Positions 10,293 through 17,521 of a DNA stretch of 64,000 bases are shown piece by piece. Numbering within the stretch: the stretch's first letter is position 1; each line of letters starts with the position of its first letter. The notes below the pieces were generated by a model. That model did no database searches, was not told the DNA's origin, and saw nothing but the letters and a program-made list of their open reading frames with translations. The stretch covers positions 62,001 through 126,000 of the forward strand of contig MFPR01000020.1 of NCBI GenBank assembly GCA_001784175.1. Direction: 5' to 3'. The DNA is from Candidatus Lindowbacteria bacterium RIFCSPLOWO2_12_FULL_62_27. GTDB lineage: Bacteria; Lindowbacteria; 2-12-FULL-62-27. Both the position numbers and the translations under genes were made by a program.

Positions 10293-12587
10293 ATGATTCG
10301 CAAGCAAACGATGGGGATGATGGGATGTTTGGCTTTGATGTTTGTCCTTGCCTGCACGGTTCCTTCCTTCGCTACATTTACAGAGGACACGATGGTGTTG
10401 AGGGGCACGACGGATACGTCGTCGAGTACTTTCAACGCCGCCGGCGGCCTGAATGGAGATACGAATGTGACGACCATGCTGGATGTGGCCGTGGACAGTT
10501 CGGGACAGATGTATTTCCTGCATTTTCACAGCGAAGCGGGTGACACGGAGATTTTGATCACCAAATATGACAACGCCGGTAATTTCAAATCGGTTCTGAC
10601 GGTCGACGACAATCCGGAAACGGATATTGTCATGATGGCGCTGGCGGTCAACAAGCAGTCGGGTGCCATCTATGTCGCTGCTGCCGGTTTGACGGGTGCC
10701 TTGTACCTGTATACGGATACAGGTCCACACACGAACTCACGTTTTACGGTTGACACCATCCAGTTCGGTCTGATCAACATGGACTCCAAATTCGGTTCAG
10801 TGGACGTCACGGTGTTTGGCAAGAGCACCGTCGATTCCGTGTATGTGGTCGCTATTTCAGACACTACATTTCGGCCAACTGGAAATCGTGATTCTGGTGT
10901 CCTGCTGTGGAGATTTAACCATACCGGAATGATCACCGACACCAAGGTTCTGATCCGGAGAAACGACACGGAGGCGGAAGACACCCTGGCTCTAAGCCGG
11001 GGTTCCATTCCGGCGAGGGTTCTGATTGAGGCCATCGATACGGATAAAATCGCCGTTGTGTCGATCGGCCGCGCTCCGTACCCGGCGCGGTTGGGCGGGG
11101 TCGGCTACGATACGGGCAAGTACGGTGTGTATTATGACACGTTCCAAATCGGCCCGGATGGGACGATCGTCACAGATTCCATGGCCGATACGATAACGGT
11201 CCTGGCCGACTCCGTGACGGTCAATTCCATCGCGGCGTTCGACATGAAGTGGGATACCTTCAACAACCGGATCGTAATCTATTACGCGCTTCGGACTTCT
11301 TCCACCAAGCTGTCCAGAATCTACATCCCGGCCTTTGGGTACTTCACATCTTCCGGGAGCAACACGGCAGTTTCCGACAATTTTTCCTTCGATACTCTGC
11401 CGTCGGCCATTTCGTTGAGCATCCACAAGCTGACGGGGCAGTCCGTGAAGGAGCATCTCGCGTATCGTTCCCGAGGGGCGGGAACGATTCACTACATTAA
11501 ACGGGAAGCTGATGCGACGACGGGAAACGTCGAGATCGACACGGTAGCCGGCACTCGTGACCGTGCCAGTGGATCCGTCTCCTTGAGCGATTCGTTGCCG
11601 GTCGTGATCGCCGTCACGAACGACGGCGCGCCCAGGATCGCGTATGAGCAGCGGGTGCATAACCAGATTTTCATCAACCTCGCGCGCCAACAGGGCGCGT
11701 CGGTGGCGAGCGGGGAGAACGTGTCGGTCACAACGTCCCAGACGTTCACGTCCTCCTCCGGCGCCGGCACGGCGTCGGCGCCGCTGGTTTCCACCATCGT
11801 CCCTGCGTTCAACAGTACGATTGACAGCCCGGCGCAGCTCGCCCAGATCGCGTTGACGTCCTCTCCGACCTCTCCCGCCACGTCCTCGTCCGGGCTTACC
11901 GATTTCACCACGCCGTCGTATGTGGTCGCGGTCCCGCTCGGAAACGCGCACGGGGACACGCTCACGGTTCAGCTTAAGGCGACGGGCAACGGCGCCGGCG
12001 TCGCGGTCTACATGCGCCGCCTGACCGACACGAATCCGTCGGGCGGAATGGGCGGCAGCAGCTCGACGCCGGACACCAGCGTGTTCGCGGGCCTGTCTGA
12101 CTCCCAGTTCACGGCTTGCGCCCAGACTTGGGTGAAAATCCGGCTGGGCGACACCGCCGGCAACGTCTATGACGACAACGCCTTTTCCGACACCCTCGCC
12201 GTCCGGCTGTCCTTCACGCTGACGCCGGCCGTGCTGGCGTCGTTGATGAATGCGGGCATCGACACTACCCCGGGCCAGCTTGCGGTGTGGGTCCTGAACA
12301 GCAGCAACGCGTTCGTTCAGATCGGAAATTCGTCCGCCTACACGCAGACCGAACTGAACGCCGGCGGCGCCGTGACGCTTGTATCCAACACCATCACGAG
12401 CTTCTCGCCGGGTGGCGTTGCGAAAGCGGTGGGTGCCGCGTCCGGAAGCGACGGCGGCATCTGTTTGATGGGCCGCTGCGTCGAAAGCGCCTCTCCTGCG
12501 GCCGGCGCGTTCCGGTCGGTGCGGGACACGTTTCTATCGAGCAAAGTGGGCCGCGTGTTGACGTCGCTGTATTATCGGATGAAGTAA
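10293..12587 (+). CDS. Secreted beta-rich protein with C-terminal sorting-like tail
   Basis: A 764-residue exported protein of unknown function. Seen: signal peptide (residues 1-29, MIRKQ... then a hydrophobic core ending VPSFA), a first part of about 450 residues with repeated beta-type segments suggestive of a propeller (DVAVDSSGQMYFLHF, LAVNKQSGAIYVAAAG), then a Ser/Thr/Ala-rich part. The C-terminus has GGICLMGRC followed by a spaced FR-x-x-RD-x-FL...GR...YYR pattern, resembling the CFI-box type C-terminal tails of some exported proteins, although the CFIATAAYG core is absent. ATG 10293 is favoured over 10230 because a strong Shine-Dalgarno precedes it and the signal peptide begins there. 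Codon use in the first half is less GC-rich than in its neighbours. It is a single-gene unit with its own promoter and terminator. Confidence 0.8.
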   Translation: MIRKQTMGMMGCLALMFVLACTVPSFATFTEDTMVLRGTTDTSSSTFNAAGGLNGDTNVTTMLDVAVDSSGQMYFLHFHSEAGDTEILITKYDNAGNFKSVLTVDDNPETDIVMMALAVNKQSGAIYVAAAGLTGALYLYTDTGPHTNSRFTVDTIQFGLINMDSKFGSVDVTVFGKSTVDSVYVVAISDTTFRPTGNRDSGVLLWRFNHTGMITDTKVLIRRNDTEAEDTLALSRGSIPARVLIEAIDTDKIAVVSIGRAPYPARLGGVGYDTGKYGVYYDTFQIGPDGTIVTDSMADTITVLADSVTVNSIAAFDMKWDTFNNRIVIYYALRTSSTKLSRIYIPAFGYFTSSGSNTAVSDNFSFDTLPSAISLSIHKLTGQSVKEHLAYRSRGAGTIHYIKREADATTGNVEIDTVAGTRDRASGSVSLSDSLPVVIAVTNDGAPRIAYEQRVHNQIFINLARQQGASVASGENVSVTTSQTFTSSSGAGTASAPLVSTIVPAFNSTIDSPAQLAQIALTSSPTSPATSSSGLTDFTTPSYVVAVPLGNAHGDTLTVQLKATGNGAGVAVYMRRLTDTNPSGGMGGSSSTPDTSVFAGLSDSQFTACAQTWVKIRLGDTAGNVYDDNAFSDTLAVRLSFTLTPAVLASLMNAGIDTTPGQLAVWVLNSSNAFVQIGNSSAYTQTELNAGGAVTLVSNTITSFSPGGVAKAVGAASGSDGGICLMGRCVESASPAAGAFRSVRDTFLSSKVGRVLTSLYYRMK

Positions 12588-12607: not shown

Positions 12608-12657
12608 CTCCCCACTTCCGACGGCTGGCCATACTGTTGGAAGTGGGGAGTTTTTTT
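12608..12657 (+). terminator. Rho-independent terminator after the secreted-protein gene
   Basis: A 12-bp perfect stem, CTCCCCACTTCC (12608-12619) with GGAAGTGGGGAG (12639-12650), is followed by seven T residues. The loop is 19 bases. Confidence 0.93.
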
Positions 12658-12691: not shown

Positions 12692-12728
12692 GTCTCACGC
12701 AAAGGCGCGAAGGTGCAAAGGCGCAAAG
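12692..12728 (+). repeat. Left terminal repeat and 8-bp iterons of the GxxExxY cassette
   Basis: After GTCTCAC come four tandem 8-mers, GCAAAGGC, GCGAAGGT, GCAAAGGC and GCAAAGAA, ending about 30 bases before the TTG start of the gene. Confidence 0.8.
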
Positions 12729-12757
12729 AAAACATGACGTAGCGGTGAGGGAAGCGT

Positions 12758-13156
12758 TTGACTGAGAATGAGATTGCCGCCATTGTTGTGGATGTGGCGT
12801 ATAAGATCCATGTCAAACTGGGGCCGGGGGTTTTCGAGTCCGTCTACGAAGCCGTTATGACACGTGCGCTCACGAAACGTGGACTCGAGGTGAAACGACA
12901 ATATCCGATCCCGGTCAGCTATGACGGTGAGGAGTTTGATGAAGGATTCCGCGCCGACCTCATCATCGAGAACAAAGTTATCATCGAATTGAAATCCCAA
13001 GAAACCGTCTTGCCCGTCCATAAAAAACAATTGCTCACCTATCTGCGTCTGTCGGGGTTGAGGCTCGGACTGCTCATCAATTTCGGCCAAGAATATATCA
13101 AAAACGGAATCCATCGCGTAGTCAACGGCCTTCCGGATGAGTCCTCCTCCTCATAA
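12758..13156 (+). CDS. GxxExxY protein (PD-(D/E)XK-like fold)
   Basis: A 132-residue member of the GxxExxY family. The motif itself is GPGVFESVYEAVM (residues 24-36, G-x-x-E-x-x-Y), and the nuclease-like residues are visible as E/D in FRADLIIENKVIIELKSQE (D-x(n)-E-x-K). The family is widespread in environmental bacteria and has no established function. The start is TTG at 12758: the in-frame ATG upstream at 12734 hits a stop after two codons, the family usually starts M-T-E-x-E-I as here, and a GGTGAGG Shine-Dalgarno lies just upstream. It stands alone inside the inverted-repeat cassette between unrelated operons, consistent with acquisition by transfer. Confidence 0.9.
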   Translation: MTENEIAAIVVDVAYKIHVKLGPGVFESVYEAVMTRALTKRGLEVKRQYPIPVSYDGEEFDEGFRADLIIENKVIIELKSQETVLPVHKKQLLTYLRLSGLRLGLLINFGQEYIKNGIHRVVNGLPDESSSS

Positions 13157-13170
13157 CCCCAAGTATATGT

Positions 13171-13215
13171 TTCTCCGCGTCTCGCGCTTTGTGTCTTTGC
13201 GCCTTTGCGTGAGAC
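13171..13215 (-). repeat. Right terminal repeat and iterons of the GxxExxY cassette
   Basis: Read on the minus strand it is GTCTCAC followed by GCAAAGGC, GCAAAGAC and ACAAAGCG, then decays into CGAGACGCGGAG. It mirrors the left end and begins 14 bases after the stop of the GxxExxY gene. Confidence 0.8.
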
Positions 13216-13237: not shown

Positions 13238-14077
13238 TCACCATTCCAGTTGATTTCTCAATAACTTTCCGTACATCCGGGGCGGCAGGAAGGCGTGGGC
13301 GTGGATTTCCGCGCTGTAGAATTTTGTCTTGACAGAATGCCTTCTTCTCATTTTCCTCGGCGTCCATTTCCGGGACGCCACCGCGAAGCTCCACCAGTTG
13401 CTCGGATAGGTCGCGATCGGCGCGGTGTAGAGATCGACGATGGGAAAATGCCGTTTGAGTTTTCGTTGCATCGCGATGATCGTTTTCTTGTGAAAGTGCA
13501 TCGATTCGGTGTGGGTCACGAAGAAGCCGTCGGCGCTCAGGCAATGTTTGACGAGCTTGAAAAAATTGTCCGTAAACAGGGTGTTTGCGATTCCCGTGAT
13601 GTTGGTGGAATCAACGATGACCGCGTCGATATTCTCCGGTTTGCCGTCTCTCAAGAAGGCCGCCCCGTCGCCTACGTGAATCTCAACCTTGTCGTCATCC
13701 ACGCGCCCGGCCACCTTCGGAAAAAACCTCCGGGAAACATCGATCACTTCCCCGTCCAATTCGGCGAAAAAGACCTTCTCAACCGTCCTGTGTTTCAACA
13801 CCTCCCGCACGATCCCGCCGTCGCCGCCGCCGATGACGATGATCCTGCGAGGCGCCGGATGCGCGTGCATCACGACGTGCGTGAGCATCTCGTGATAGAA
13901 AAATTCGTCCCGCTCGGTGATCTGCACGGCGTCGTCCAGGATCAGCATCCGGCCGAAATACTTGTGCTCGGCCACCATGATCTTCTGGTATTTGCTCTTG
14001 TGCCGATACAGCACCCTCTCAATGTCATAGGAAAAAATGACGGGCGAGTACCGCGCATTTTCTGAGAATCTGGCCAC
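13238..14077 (-). CDS. speE: Polyamine aminopropyltransferase (spermidine synthase)
   Basis: A 279-residue enzyme that transfers the aminopropyl group of decarboxylated S-adenosylmethionine to putrescine or a similar acceptor. Seen: the SAM-binding GGGDGG at residues 83-88, acidic ribose contact in FFAELDGEVI, the catalytic aspartate D156 in VDSTN (usually DSTDP), and the acceptor-site motif YPSNWWSF near 213-220. Size is normal. The C-terminal 40 residues are basic. It is divergent from speD, its obligate supplier of decarboxylated SAM, with 125 bp between the starts. Confidence 0.93.
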   Translation of the reverse strand: MARFSENARYSPVIFSYDIERVLYRHKSKYQKIMVAEHKYFGRMLILDDAVQITERDEFFYHEMLTHVVMHAHPAPRRIIVIGGGDGGIVREVLKHRTVEKVFFAELDGEVIDVSRRFFPKVAGRVDDDKVEIHVGDGAAFLRDGKPENIDAVIVDSTNITGIANTLFTDNFFKLVKHCLSADGFFVTHTESMHFHKKTIIAMQRKLKRHFPIVDLYTAPIATYPSNWWSFAVASRKWTPRKMRRRHSVKTKFYSAEIHAHAFLPPRMYGKLLRNQLEW

Positions 14078-15560: not shown

Positions 15561-15676
15561 TATCCCCCCTCTCCCGCCTTTGGCGGGAGAGGGTCGGGGT
15601 GAGGGTGGTCCCGCCGTCATCGACCCCCCTCACCTCAATCCTCTCCCCCCTTCGGGGGGAGAGGAGGTGAATAGAT
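15561..15676. repeat. Composite hairpin repeat (about 116 bp), copy A1
   Basis: Two hairpin halves: CCTCTCCCGCC...GGCGGGAGAGG then GGGGTGAGGGTGG, a short spacer, then CCCCCTCACCTCAATCC and CTCCCCCC..GGGGGGAGAGGAGG. It fills the gap between two converging genes (epimerase and GT2). The same unit recurs at 18661 and, inverted, at 32459. Confidence 0.85.
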
Positions 15677-15681
15677 ACCCG

Positions 15682-16593
15682 TTACGGCCGCCTGAACCCC
15701 AGCGCCTGGAGGATGTCGTGGAACATGTGTTTGGTCCGGCGGGCGAGAAAGAAGAAGGCGACGCTGGCGAGCATGACGGGCTTTCGGCGGATGGAGTGGG
15801 GCGAGCGCAGGACGGCCGTCAGGTGATCAAAGAACTGCCGCCAGTGCGTCATCCACATTCGGAAATATTTTGGTTTGGGGCACGTCGCCGGATAAAAAGT
15901 CGTCTTATACCGCTCCAGCACGTCCCGGAGATGCGCGGAGGGTTTGGTTTTCCGGAAGTACATCAGGTCTTCGTGCACGCAGGCGATGGCGCCGATGAGG
16001 GAAAGCTCAAAAATCAGCAGGTTGTCCGGTGAGATGACATGGTGGTACATCCGTGTCCGCCGCAGGGCATCGGCGCGAAAGAGTCCGCCTATTTGATTGC
16101 ACCCGCTGGATGACCAGAGCATGATGTTGAGTCTGGACACAACGTTGAGGGCCCGGGTGTCCATCCAGGCATTGAACCGAGGATCCGATATCACTTTACC
16201 GTCCGTGTCGATCACGGGGATCAGAGGATAGGCGCAAACCACGGCCGGGTTCGATTCGAGGACCGGCAGGAGTTGCGAAATGTAGTTGGGCCGCCAGAGG
16301 TCGTGGCCGGCCGCCCACATGAAGAAGGGCGCGCGGGCCTGGCGGAACACGAAGTTCTGGTGATCGATGATGCCCAGCCGGGACGGCTGGCGAAACAACC
16401 GGACGCGCTTGTCGCGCTCCGCGTATTGCCCACATATGTCGCCGGTCCCGTCCGTGGAGTTATCGTCGGAAAGGATCAGCTCAAAATCGGTGAAGTCCTG
16501 CGCCAGCAGGGACTCGATGGCTTCGCGCGCAAACCTCCCGTCGTTGTAGGAGGTGAATCCGATACTGACGCGCGGGCTTGCTGGATCCGGCAT
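15682..16593 (-). CDS. Family 2 glycosyltransferase, tandem copy 1
   Basis: A 303-residue GT-A fold glycosyltransferase. Seen: the N-terminal nucleotide-binding core RVSIGFTSYNDGRFAREAIESLL, then LILSDDNSTDGT (residues 39-50) typical of GT2. The C-terminal part (HLRDVLERYKTTFY, then HSIRRKPVML) has no catalytic motif I recognise and ends in a basic, possibly membrane-associated segment. Its neighbour at 16601 is clearly a paralogue, colinear over the whole length, only 7 bases upstream in the same direction. Both probably build or decorate a surface glycan; donor and acceptor are unknown. Confidence 0.9.
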   Translation of the reverse strand: MPDPASPRVSIGFTSYNDGRFAREAIESLLAQDFTDFELILSDDNSTDGTGDICGQYAERDKRVRLFRQPSRLGIIDHQNFVFRQARAPFFMWAAGHDLWRPNYISQLLPVLESNPAVVCAYPLIPVIDTDGKVISDPRFNAWMDTRALNVVSRLNIMLWSSSGCNQIGGLFRADALRRTRMYHHVISPDNLLIFELSLIGAIACVHEDLMYFRKTKPSAHLRDVLERYKTTFYPATCPKPKYFRMWMTHWRQFFDHLTAVLRSPHSIRRKPVMLASVAFFFLARRTKHMFHDILQALGFRRP

Positions 16594-16600
16594 GTCGCGT

Positions 16601-17521
16601 CTAGGGGCGGGGCAAACCGAGTGCCTGAACGCCGTCGTGGATCATGTGCTTGGTGTGCCGTGCCATGAATCCGAAAACGGTGCTGGCGAGCATGACGGGT
16701 TTGCGGCGTGGGGAGTGTGCCGAGCGAAGGACGGCGGCGAGATGTTCGTAAAAGAGCCGCCAGTGGGTCAGCCACATCCTGAAGTATCGGGGCATCGGAT
16801 CGTCTTCGGCGTAAAACACTGTCTTGTAACGTTCCAGCACGTCCCGGAGATGCTTCGAGGGAGAGGTCTTCCGAGAAATCAGGAGTTCCTCGTGCACACA
16901 GGCGATGGCGCCGATCAGGGAAAGCTCAAAAAGCATCAGATTGTCCGGCGCGATGACGGGCCGGATGAGCCGCGTCTGCCTGAGCGCGTCCGACCGAAAT
17001 ATTCCGCCGCCCGGATTGCAGCCGCTGGCGGACCAAAGCGCGATGTTGAGTCTGGAAACGACGTTGAGCGCCCGCGTATCGACCCAGCAATTGGCTGCAT
17101 GGGCGGTCGGATTAGAGATGATCATTCCATCGCTATCAATGACCGGGATGAGGGGATAACTGCAGACCACGGTCGGGTTATTTTCGAGGATCGGCAGGAG
17201 CCGGGAAATGAAGTCCGGTCTCCAGAGGTGCTGGCAGGTGGTCCACGCAAAGAAGGGAGCGCGGGTCTGGCGAAACACAAAATTCGCCTGGTTGACGATT
17301 CCCTGCCTGCGGGGCTGCCGGAAAAACCGGATACGGGGATCCTGATCCGCGTATTTCCGGCAGACATCGGCGGTCCCGTCCGTGGAGTTGTCGTCGGACA
17401 GGATCAGCTCAAAATCCTTGAACTCCTGCGCCAGGAGCGACTCGATGGACTCGCTCACGTAATGGACATCATTGAAGGCGCTGAGTCCTATTCCGACACG
17501 CGGGCTCTGTCCTTCTGACAT
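16601..17521 (-). CDS. Family 2 glycosyltransferase, tandem copy 2
   Basis: A 306-residue paralogue of the gene downstream. The same blocks are present: SDDNSTDGT near residue 42, APFFAWTTCQHLWRPDFIS, PLIPVIDSDG, the invariant DTRALNVVSRLNI, and the C-terminal HSPRRKPVMLAS. By eye roughly two thirds of positions agree with copy 1, including long identical runs, so this is a fairly recent tandem duplication. Differences cluster in the acceptor half (CNPGGGIFRSDALRQTRL). It is divergent from the GT9 gene, with only 25 bp between the two starts, so both promoters must share this gap or overlap coding DNA. Confidence 0.9.
   Translation of the reverse strand: MSEGQSPRVGIGLSAFNDVHYVSESIESLLAQEFKDFELILSDDNSTDGTADVCRKYADQDPRIRFFRQPRRQGIVNQANFVFRQTRAPFFAWTTCQHLWRPDFISRLLPILENNPTVVCSYPLIPVIDSDGMIISNPTAHAANCWVDTRALNVVSRLNIALWSASGCNPGGGIFRSDALRQTRLIRPVIAPDNLMLFELSLIGAIACVHEELLISRKTSPSKHLRDVLERYKTVFYAEDDPMPRYFRMWLTHWRLFYEHLAAVLRSAHSPRRKPVMLASTVFGFMARHTKHMIHDGVQALGLPRP

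Follow-up and report, generated by a model that had tools for sequence, protein, structure and literature searches.

The window, a stretch of 64,000 nucleotides of contig MFPR01000020.1 from Candidatus Lindowbacteria bacterium RIFCSPLOWO2_12_FULL_62_27, carries at positions 12692-13215 a segment spanning 524 bp, in which a GxxExxY gene lies between inverted repeats. The original prediction described perfect inverted repeats of 17 bp passing inward into 8-bp iterons, and the following features bear this description out.

12692..12708, plus strand: left outer inverted repeat, GTCTCACGCAAAGGCGC, 17 bp, the perfect complement of 13199-13215
12698..12728, plus strand: left iteron array with the unit CGCAAAGG, 3.9 copies by Tandem Repeats Finder, a repeat-family search agreeing
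12758..13156, plus strand: GxxExxY gene, 132 aa, with a PD-(D/E)XK fold (TIGR04256, 1.9e-40; PF13366, 7.7e-40; AlphaFold2 model)
13187..13215, minus strand: right inverted arm with iterons, reading inward, 86% over 29 bp with 12692-12720
13199..13215, minus strand: right outer inverted repeat, 17 bp, the perfect complement of 12692-12708

The iteron unit is 8 bp long and the arrays run inward from the 17-bp ends. The pair, perfect over 17 bp, matches at 86% when it is lengthened to 29 bp (12692-12720 and 13187-13215). By calculation, a perfect 17-bp inverted pair at most ~500 bp apart is expected by chance ~0.002 times per 64 kb. The GxxExxY gene starts with TTG, ATG being found at the equal position in most relatives, and the opposite strand of the segment also holds a 139-aa ORF. 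GxxExxY is the sole gene with homologues inside the segment and the only one between the ends matched to a family in Pfam and NCBIfam; the original prediction was therefore right that no transposase is encoded there. The cassette is intergenic, with a protein gene that has no Pfam match and ends at 12587 on its left, a terminator-like hairpin (12608-12650) between that gene and the cassette, and, on its right, a gene for spermidine synthase in convergent orientation (13238-14077, minus strand). The spermidine synthase is 32-38% identical to those of two other genomes of the phylum, in which nothing was alignable at the cassette site, and a search for an empty site of the window cassette accordingly yielded none. 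Searches with Rfam at the gathering threshold gave no match in the window or in 14 further loci. Elsewhere in the window, the stretch at ~15565-15660, whose ORF translation reads LAGEGRGEG ... LNPLPPSGGEE, resembles what we take to be a widely dispersed palindromic repeat, and two adjacent minus-strand ORFs (15682-16593 and 16601-17521) with similar glycosyltransferase-like products are an apparent tandem duplication.

The window GxxExxY protein scored 137.8 bits against TIGR04256 (cut-off 35) and 136.3 bits against PF13366 (PDDEXK_3; cut-off 22), and the residues E31, D67, E77 and K79 were invariant in 40 of 40 sequences. An AlphaFold2 model with a mean pLDDT of 92.4 aligned best by VIA-align with 4ic1 (SSO0001; Z 9.1, rmsd 4.6, 102 aligned) and second with 3ijm (Z 8.4, rmsd 3.1, 100 aligned), followed at lower ranks by restriction enzymes, Hjc and Cas4 proteins. 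Foldseek alone returned nothing at E ≤ 0.001 (best 1.5e-3), and a profile search of solved structures returned nothing useful (best E 0.67). By its conserved active site and the core fold of the model, GxxExxY belongs to the PD-(D/E)XK superfamily, and nuclease activity is predicted. A median dN/dS of 0.127 over 110 pairs of site genes from Nostocaceae indicates that purifying selection acts on the protein. The sole PADLOC match was to a type IIG model (E 0.013, residues 66-111), and the one PHROGs match (1.9e-4, 'CRISPR/Cas system associated') fell in the shared nuclease region. Carriage by phages or plasmids was considered as the main vehicle and rejected, GxxExxY being found in 0 of 50,697 phage and 7 of 72,556 plasmid records. 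Two papers in the open-access literature name GxxExxY, neither more than in passing, and searches of that literature returned no description of an association between GxxExxY/PDDEXK_3 and iterons.

Within the window's own genome, iteron matches free of mismatches were found only at the two ends of the window cassette. The 11 further matches, all with 2 mismatches, are at control level, and no dispersed iteron copies were seen there. Two of these 11 (C28:253389 and C28:253835) pair around the second GxxExxY gene, which has a diverged pair of window-type iterons and, outside it, a further inverted pair made of AGGGTTCG iterons with an 8-bp unit. This AGGGTTCG pair encloses the second cassette at 1407-1431 and 1981-2005 of its extracted locus (L016). 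The third GxxExxY copy, at C28:274281, is without the window iteron; near it (L017, ~577-620, 1024-1057 and 1897-1987) 10-bp CACGAAGGAG iterons and 7-bp CAATCCG repeats were observed, the former also inverted around ~65 bp and the latter inside a coding region.

The check proposed with the original prediction, a search for iterons at GxxExxY loci of many genomes, was carried out on 80 relatives from named genomes of many phyla and 7 loci from the window's phylum, all picked via protein similarity and not via their repeats. After three of the 87 loci were dropped for short flanks, inverted arms scoring ≥ 13 were found at 66 of 84 loci, compared with 2 of 199 control ORFs from the same loci, and 18 loci had no clear inverted pair. 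Inverted ends are thus a frequent property of other GxxExxY loci, and the absence there that would have spoken against the prediction was not what was observed. Iteron periodicity, defined as at least 13 of 16 matches at a lag of 7-10, was likewise enriched in the many-phyla set (55/85 loci vs 14/157 controls), in Planctomycetota (23/30 vs 3/44), where 11 of 30 GxxExxY loci lack a clear inverted pair, and in paralogs of Nostocaceae (12/29 vs 2/19).

The iterons differ in sequence between lineages. Nostocaceae subfamilies carry CTCACGCAAAGGCGCAAAG-type, TTTAAACGCAAAGGGGCGC-type or AACCACAAAGACACNAAG-type ends, one type per subfamily, and Planctomycetota loci carry AACCACAGAGACACAGAG, ACGCAGATGGACGCAGAT and others. 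Across 129 loci with arms, arm similarity rose with protein identity (rho 0.55), exceeding the maximum of label permutations (0.16, or 0.33 when permuted inside host groups). At 70-80% protein identity the median arm similarity was 0.43 within and 0.42 between host groups, where the 'misc' group includes some Planctomycetota, so that a different host group is not always a different phylum. The test was repeated free of this mixed grouping as Nostocaceae against all non-Nostocaceae, giving a rho of 0.49 with a permutation maximum of 0.26. Left out of these tests were ten Nostocaceae loci, whose species would otherwise have been counted twice, and, of the 30 loci in the paralog set, 7 that repeat the shared Nostocaceae site. 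The best protein match reached a mean percentile of arm similarity of only 0.61, which is weaker than the rank correlation suggests. Judged from these comparisons, arm similarity tracks protein similarity rather than host, and together with the 66 of 84 loci this tracking supports the claim that the iterons belong to the GxxExxY family. Among 121 alignment columns, residues 8 (8/12) and 7 (6/12), which are adjacent within the first helix of the model, most frequently changed on the same branches as an iteron base A/G. Under a branch-weighted null the best p value was 0.001, with a borderline family-wise p of 0.048 (0.175 for the second), and no residue passed correction when the iterons were labelled by their first base. 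The co-change is suggestive of a direct reading of the iteron by the protein.

A site shared by many Nostocaceae genomes made it possible to compare cassettes at one location. The gene to the right of the Nostoc cassette occurs in 117 of 118 Nostocaceae genomes, and the site was read in 70 of these 117. The GxxExxY gene was present in 33 of the 70 (26 forward and 7 inverted) and absent or broken between both flanks in 18, and synteny was lost in 19. Gene-less sites showed a perfect iteron-arm hairpin (L136), other hairpins, remnants, or clean short intergenic regions (L178 and L186). For 29 of the 33 site genes, four with a split or odd-length matched stretch being left out, the GxxExxY tree and the flank tree showed hardly any correlation (Mantel rho 0.26, n = 29). 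On the flank tree the 7 inverted tips required 7 changes of orientation. When the iterons were scored as three subtypes, the gene tree required 2 subtype changes, the minimum for three states (shuffles ≥ 7), whereas the flank tree required 12 (shuffle mean 12.2); with the discordance of the trees, this indicates that gene and iterons travel together, independent of the site. In one pair of loci (L201 and L199) the flanks are 96.1% identical, the GxxExxY genes are 65.1% identical, and the iteron subtypes differ; this contrast and the two orientations indicate that cassettes replace each other and land both ways. Replacement breakpoints lie no more than some tens of bases from the iteron ends, inversions and swaps retain iterons at both ends, and by-eye inspection revealed no evident target duplication. 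A pair of cassettes in opposite orientations was also found beyond cyanobacteria, in Geobacter and Geobacteraceae (L076/L089). In one cassette (L175), an insert of ~20 bp, CGGCTTCCCGCAGGGTAG, stands in both inverted arms, so the arms were apparently copied from one another. The swaps, the two orientations and the discordant trees strengthen the earlier proposal of a mobile unit, and on this sequence evidence the gene and its iterons appear to move as one unit at the fixed Nostocaceae site.

Iterons also occur in Nostocaceae away from the gene. The pattern CTCACGCAAAGNCGCAAAG, scanned with up to 2 mismatches, had a median of 34 copies per genome among the 93 genomes of Nostocaceae that contain GxxExxY and of 2 among the 25 that lack it, and genomes with the site gene held 31-119 copies, compared with 0-2 for reversed-pattern controls. 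Of 31 near pairs of genomes, the member with the site gene had more iterons in 27 and fewer in 4; the pairs came from a greedy choice and are not strictly independent of one another. The iteron copies far outnumber the GxxExxY genes, and four genomes without any GxxExxY still hold 18-42 matches, which indicates that iterons persist after the gene is lost or spread in its absence. The original prediction had named common intergenic repeats unconnected to the gene as an observation against it; 'common' does apply in Nostocaceae, where most copies are gene-less, and 'unconnected' does not, since their number follows the gene. In one genome (G043), 20 lone copies were read and were mostly single arrays of ~27 bp rather than hairpins, some of them inside the loop of other palindromic repeats and one (L316) apparently in frame within a coding gene. 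Lone GCAAAGGC arrays of this genome were seen in or beside palindromic repeat families at six places (L313, L315, L317, L318, L324 and L326), and these palindromic repeats may be targets or carriers of the arrays. Six lone sites (c1-c6) were traced into up to seven relatives each. At c1 one relative carries GCAGAG units and two lack iterons, at c2 and c5 iterons are lacking in some relatives, and at c3 and c4 they are present in the aligned relatives.

We consider the 524-bp segment to be probably a minimal selfish mobile cassette, in which a GxxExxY protein of PD-(D/E)XK fold stands between lineage-specific inverted iteron arrays. A tiny nuclease-like gene that moves between very different bacteria, enclosed by matching repeats that vary along with the protein, points to a minimal mobile element of a kind not recognised before. 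In the mechanism we propose, the GxxExxY protein would bind its own iterons, perhaps via the N-terminal helix with residues 7-8, and would nick or cut iteron ends or iteron-bearing hairpins, after which repair would insert a copy of the cassette, or of an iteron array, at the cut. Iteron hairpins would be the empty target, the symmetric ends would allow either orientation, and host recombination between the arms may well supply the joining step. Spread would be homing-like or REP-like and leave no target duplication, a mode that the by-eye inspection fits and does not test. GxxExxY is a widespread family of no known function, to which the link between lineage and iteron gives a testable job. 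If this reading is true, a protein of ~130 residues with a few tens of bp per end would rank among the smallest DNA units that promote their own spread, and would do so with a nuclease fold in place of a transposase.

The strongest rival is host recombination between the arms. Host repair alone would use the arms as short homologies, ordinary recombination and natural transformation would invert, swap or delete the cassette, and the protein would be a passenger or have another role. The retention of iterons at both ends through inversions and swaps speaks for it, as does the greater likeness of arms within a locus than of arms exchanged with the nearest relative (87 vs 39 of 129 loci), and the insert shared by both arms of L175 fits recombination between arms. 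However, it leaves unexplained why the subtype tracks the protein (2 vs 12 changes), why iterons are subfamily-specific, why lone iterons scale with the gene, and why the active site is conserved and under purifying selection; as the whole explanation we regard it as unlikely. The iterons could instead be operators through which GxxExxY regulates itself, or an RNA stem that arises when the two ends of the transcript pair and is then processed; in either case mobility would be incidental. The left iterons do stand just before the start codon, which almost adjoins them in some relatives, co-variation of protein and iteron is expected from operator binding too, and processing of paired ends by RNase III is known in 23S intervening sequences (PMC4990558, excerpts). 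Yet an operator needs neither the inverted repetition after the stop codon nor dozens of scattered lone arrays, and leaves unexplained that cassettes replace each other and stand in either orientation at a single site, which makes this reading improbable. A host-kept structure-specific nuclease, for example one resolving cruciforms or junctions, which processes iteron hairpins and limits rather than spreads them, would be in keeping with inverted arms at which cruciforms could form and with the alignment of the model to Hjc, a resolvase of Holliday junctions (Z 6.5, rmsd 3.4, 87 aligned), and to other PD-(D/E)XK nucleases; we hold it very unlikely, as Z values of 6-7 may reflect merely the common fold, genomes with the gene have more iterons rather than fewer, and the gene has a patchy distribution and is swapped, as a house-keeping gene would not be. 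The view of the iterons as widespread intergenic repeats unrelated to GxxExxY, to which their excess over the genes in Nostocaceae could point, is hardly credible given 66/84 against 2/199 loci, the exact iteron solely at the cassette in the window's genome and a subtype that tracks the gene at a fixed site, and is refuted unless the alignments or trees are artefacts.

The selfish cassette favoured here differs from insertion sequences and transposons in encoding no transposase. Free-standing homing endonucleases, among which PD-(D/E)XK members exist, are small nuclease genes that invade sites without them; their target is a long host sequence and the setting usually an intron or intein, and many, not all, are carried by group I or II introns. 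The cassette resembles them in its small gene, its nuclease fold and its sites with and without the gene, but its recognisable target is its own iteron and there is no intron, as judged by the lack of an Rfam match in the window. In the RAYT-REPIN system, as described in excerpts of PMC3116915, a gene is flanked by inverted pairs of a repeat of the genome-dispersed kind, protein and repeats are proposed to co-evolve, and Nostoc punctiforme is among the hosts. The likeness lies in a gene with cognate inverted repeats and in protein-repeat covariation. However, in those excerpts RAYT is a Y1 (HUH; IS200/IS605-like) transposase and REPs are short palindromic sequences, whereas GxxExxY has a PD-(D/E)XK fold with only PDDEXK_3/GxxExxY matches and its repeats are tandem 8-bp iterons. 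Furthermore, lone copies are mostly single arrays (G043), the cassette itself is exchanged between lineages, and genome-dispersed cognate repeats, a RAYT-REPIN trait, were seen in Nostocaceae and not in the window's genome. Intervening sequences of 23S rRNA, according to the sections of PMC4990558 available, carry a small ORF between terminal inverted repeats and have been called selfish; the window cassette shares with them terminal inverted repeats, short tandem repeats near the ORF start and a similar size (524 bp here, 428 nt in Coxiella). In contrast, these sequences, in the same sections, lie in 23S rRNA helices, are excised from the RNA by RNase III and encode the S23 four-helix bundle, whereas the window cassette is intergenic, has no Rfam match and matches PF13366 rather than PF05635, an unrelated nuclease fold. 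The window cassette is thus neither RAYT-REPIN nor a 23S intervening sequence, though these are its nearest analogues. Dispersed heptamer repeats of cyanobacteria, Xanthomonas and Beggiatoaceae are short-period tandem repeats, often intergenic and sometimes in inverted pairs, with a patchy distribution suggesting horizontal spread (excerpts of PMC4679880 and PMC4692102), and PMC4679880 states in its excerpted part that no transfer mechanism is evident. The excerpts of both papers tie no gene to these heptamers, whereas the GxxExxY iterons are tied to one. For such short-period repeats, spreading by no known mechanism in the PMC4679880 excerpts, GxxExxY is a candidate agent, and the cassette is a possible source of some of the mysterious repeats scattered in bacterial genomes.

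A parallel architecture was found at genes of the S23 four-helix-bundle family in Planctomycetota (L233-L262), which have flanking inverted arrays of 7-9-bp iterons with many unit sequences, for example TGTCTGG, GGTTTGTAG and GAGCAGCG. After 6 of 30 loci at contig edges were dropped, 11 of 24 had arms scoring ≥ 13, and periodicity was found at 15 of 24 compared with 4 of 38 controls; the flanks look either intergenic or coding for protein. According to the available sections of PMC4990558, a terminal stem of 28 bp closes the Coxiella intervening sequence and heptamers in tandem precede the S23 ORF; with the Planctomycetota iterons this indicates that the architecture may be common to two unrelated proteins. 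More tentatively, and with somewhat less than even confidence, GxxExxY proteins might be the enzymes that mobilise a new class of minimal elements, reading lineage-specific iterons, copying their cassettes into iteron-bearing hairpins either way and seeding lone arrays, and this class, with a parallel one based on S23, might be a source of many unexplained 7- to 10-bp tandem repeats in environmental bacteria. In six genomes (G148:C3, G179:C78, G221:C1, G173:C23, G175:C73 and G138:C27) one contig carries S23 and PF13366 genes at a distance of ~0.6-2.5 kb, as if they shared insertion hot spots. Two genomes (G139, L304-L312; G205, L293-L303) each hold 13-21 copies of S23-family genes, and immediately upstream of the ORF lies a hairpin-like stretch that recurs among the copies (in G139, GGGAGAGCGCCTATCGCCCC ... 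GGGGCGATAGGCGCTCCC), an arrangement unlike that of the iterons.
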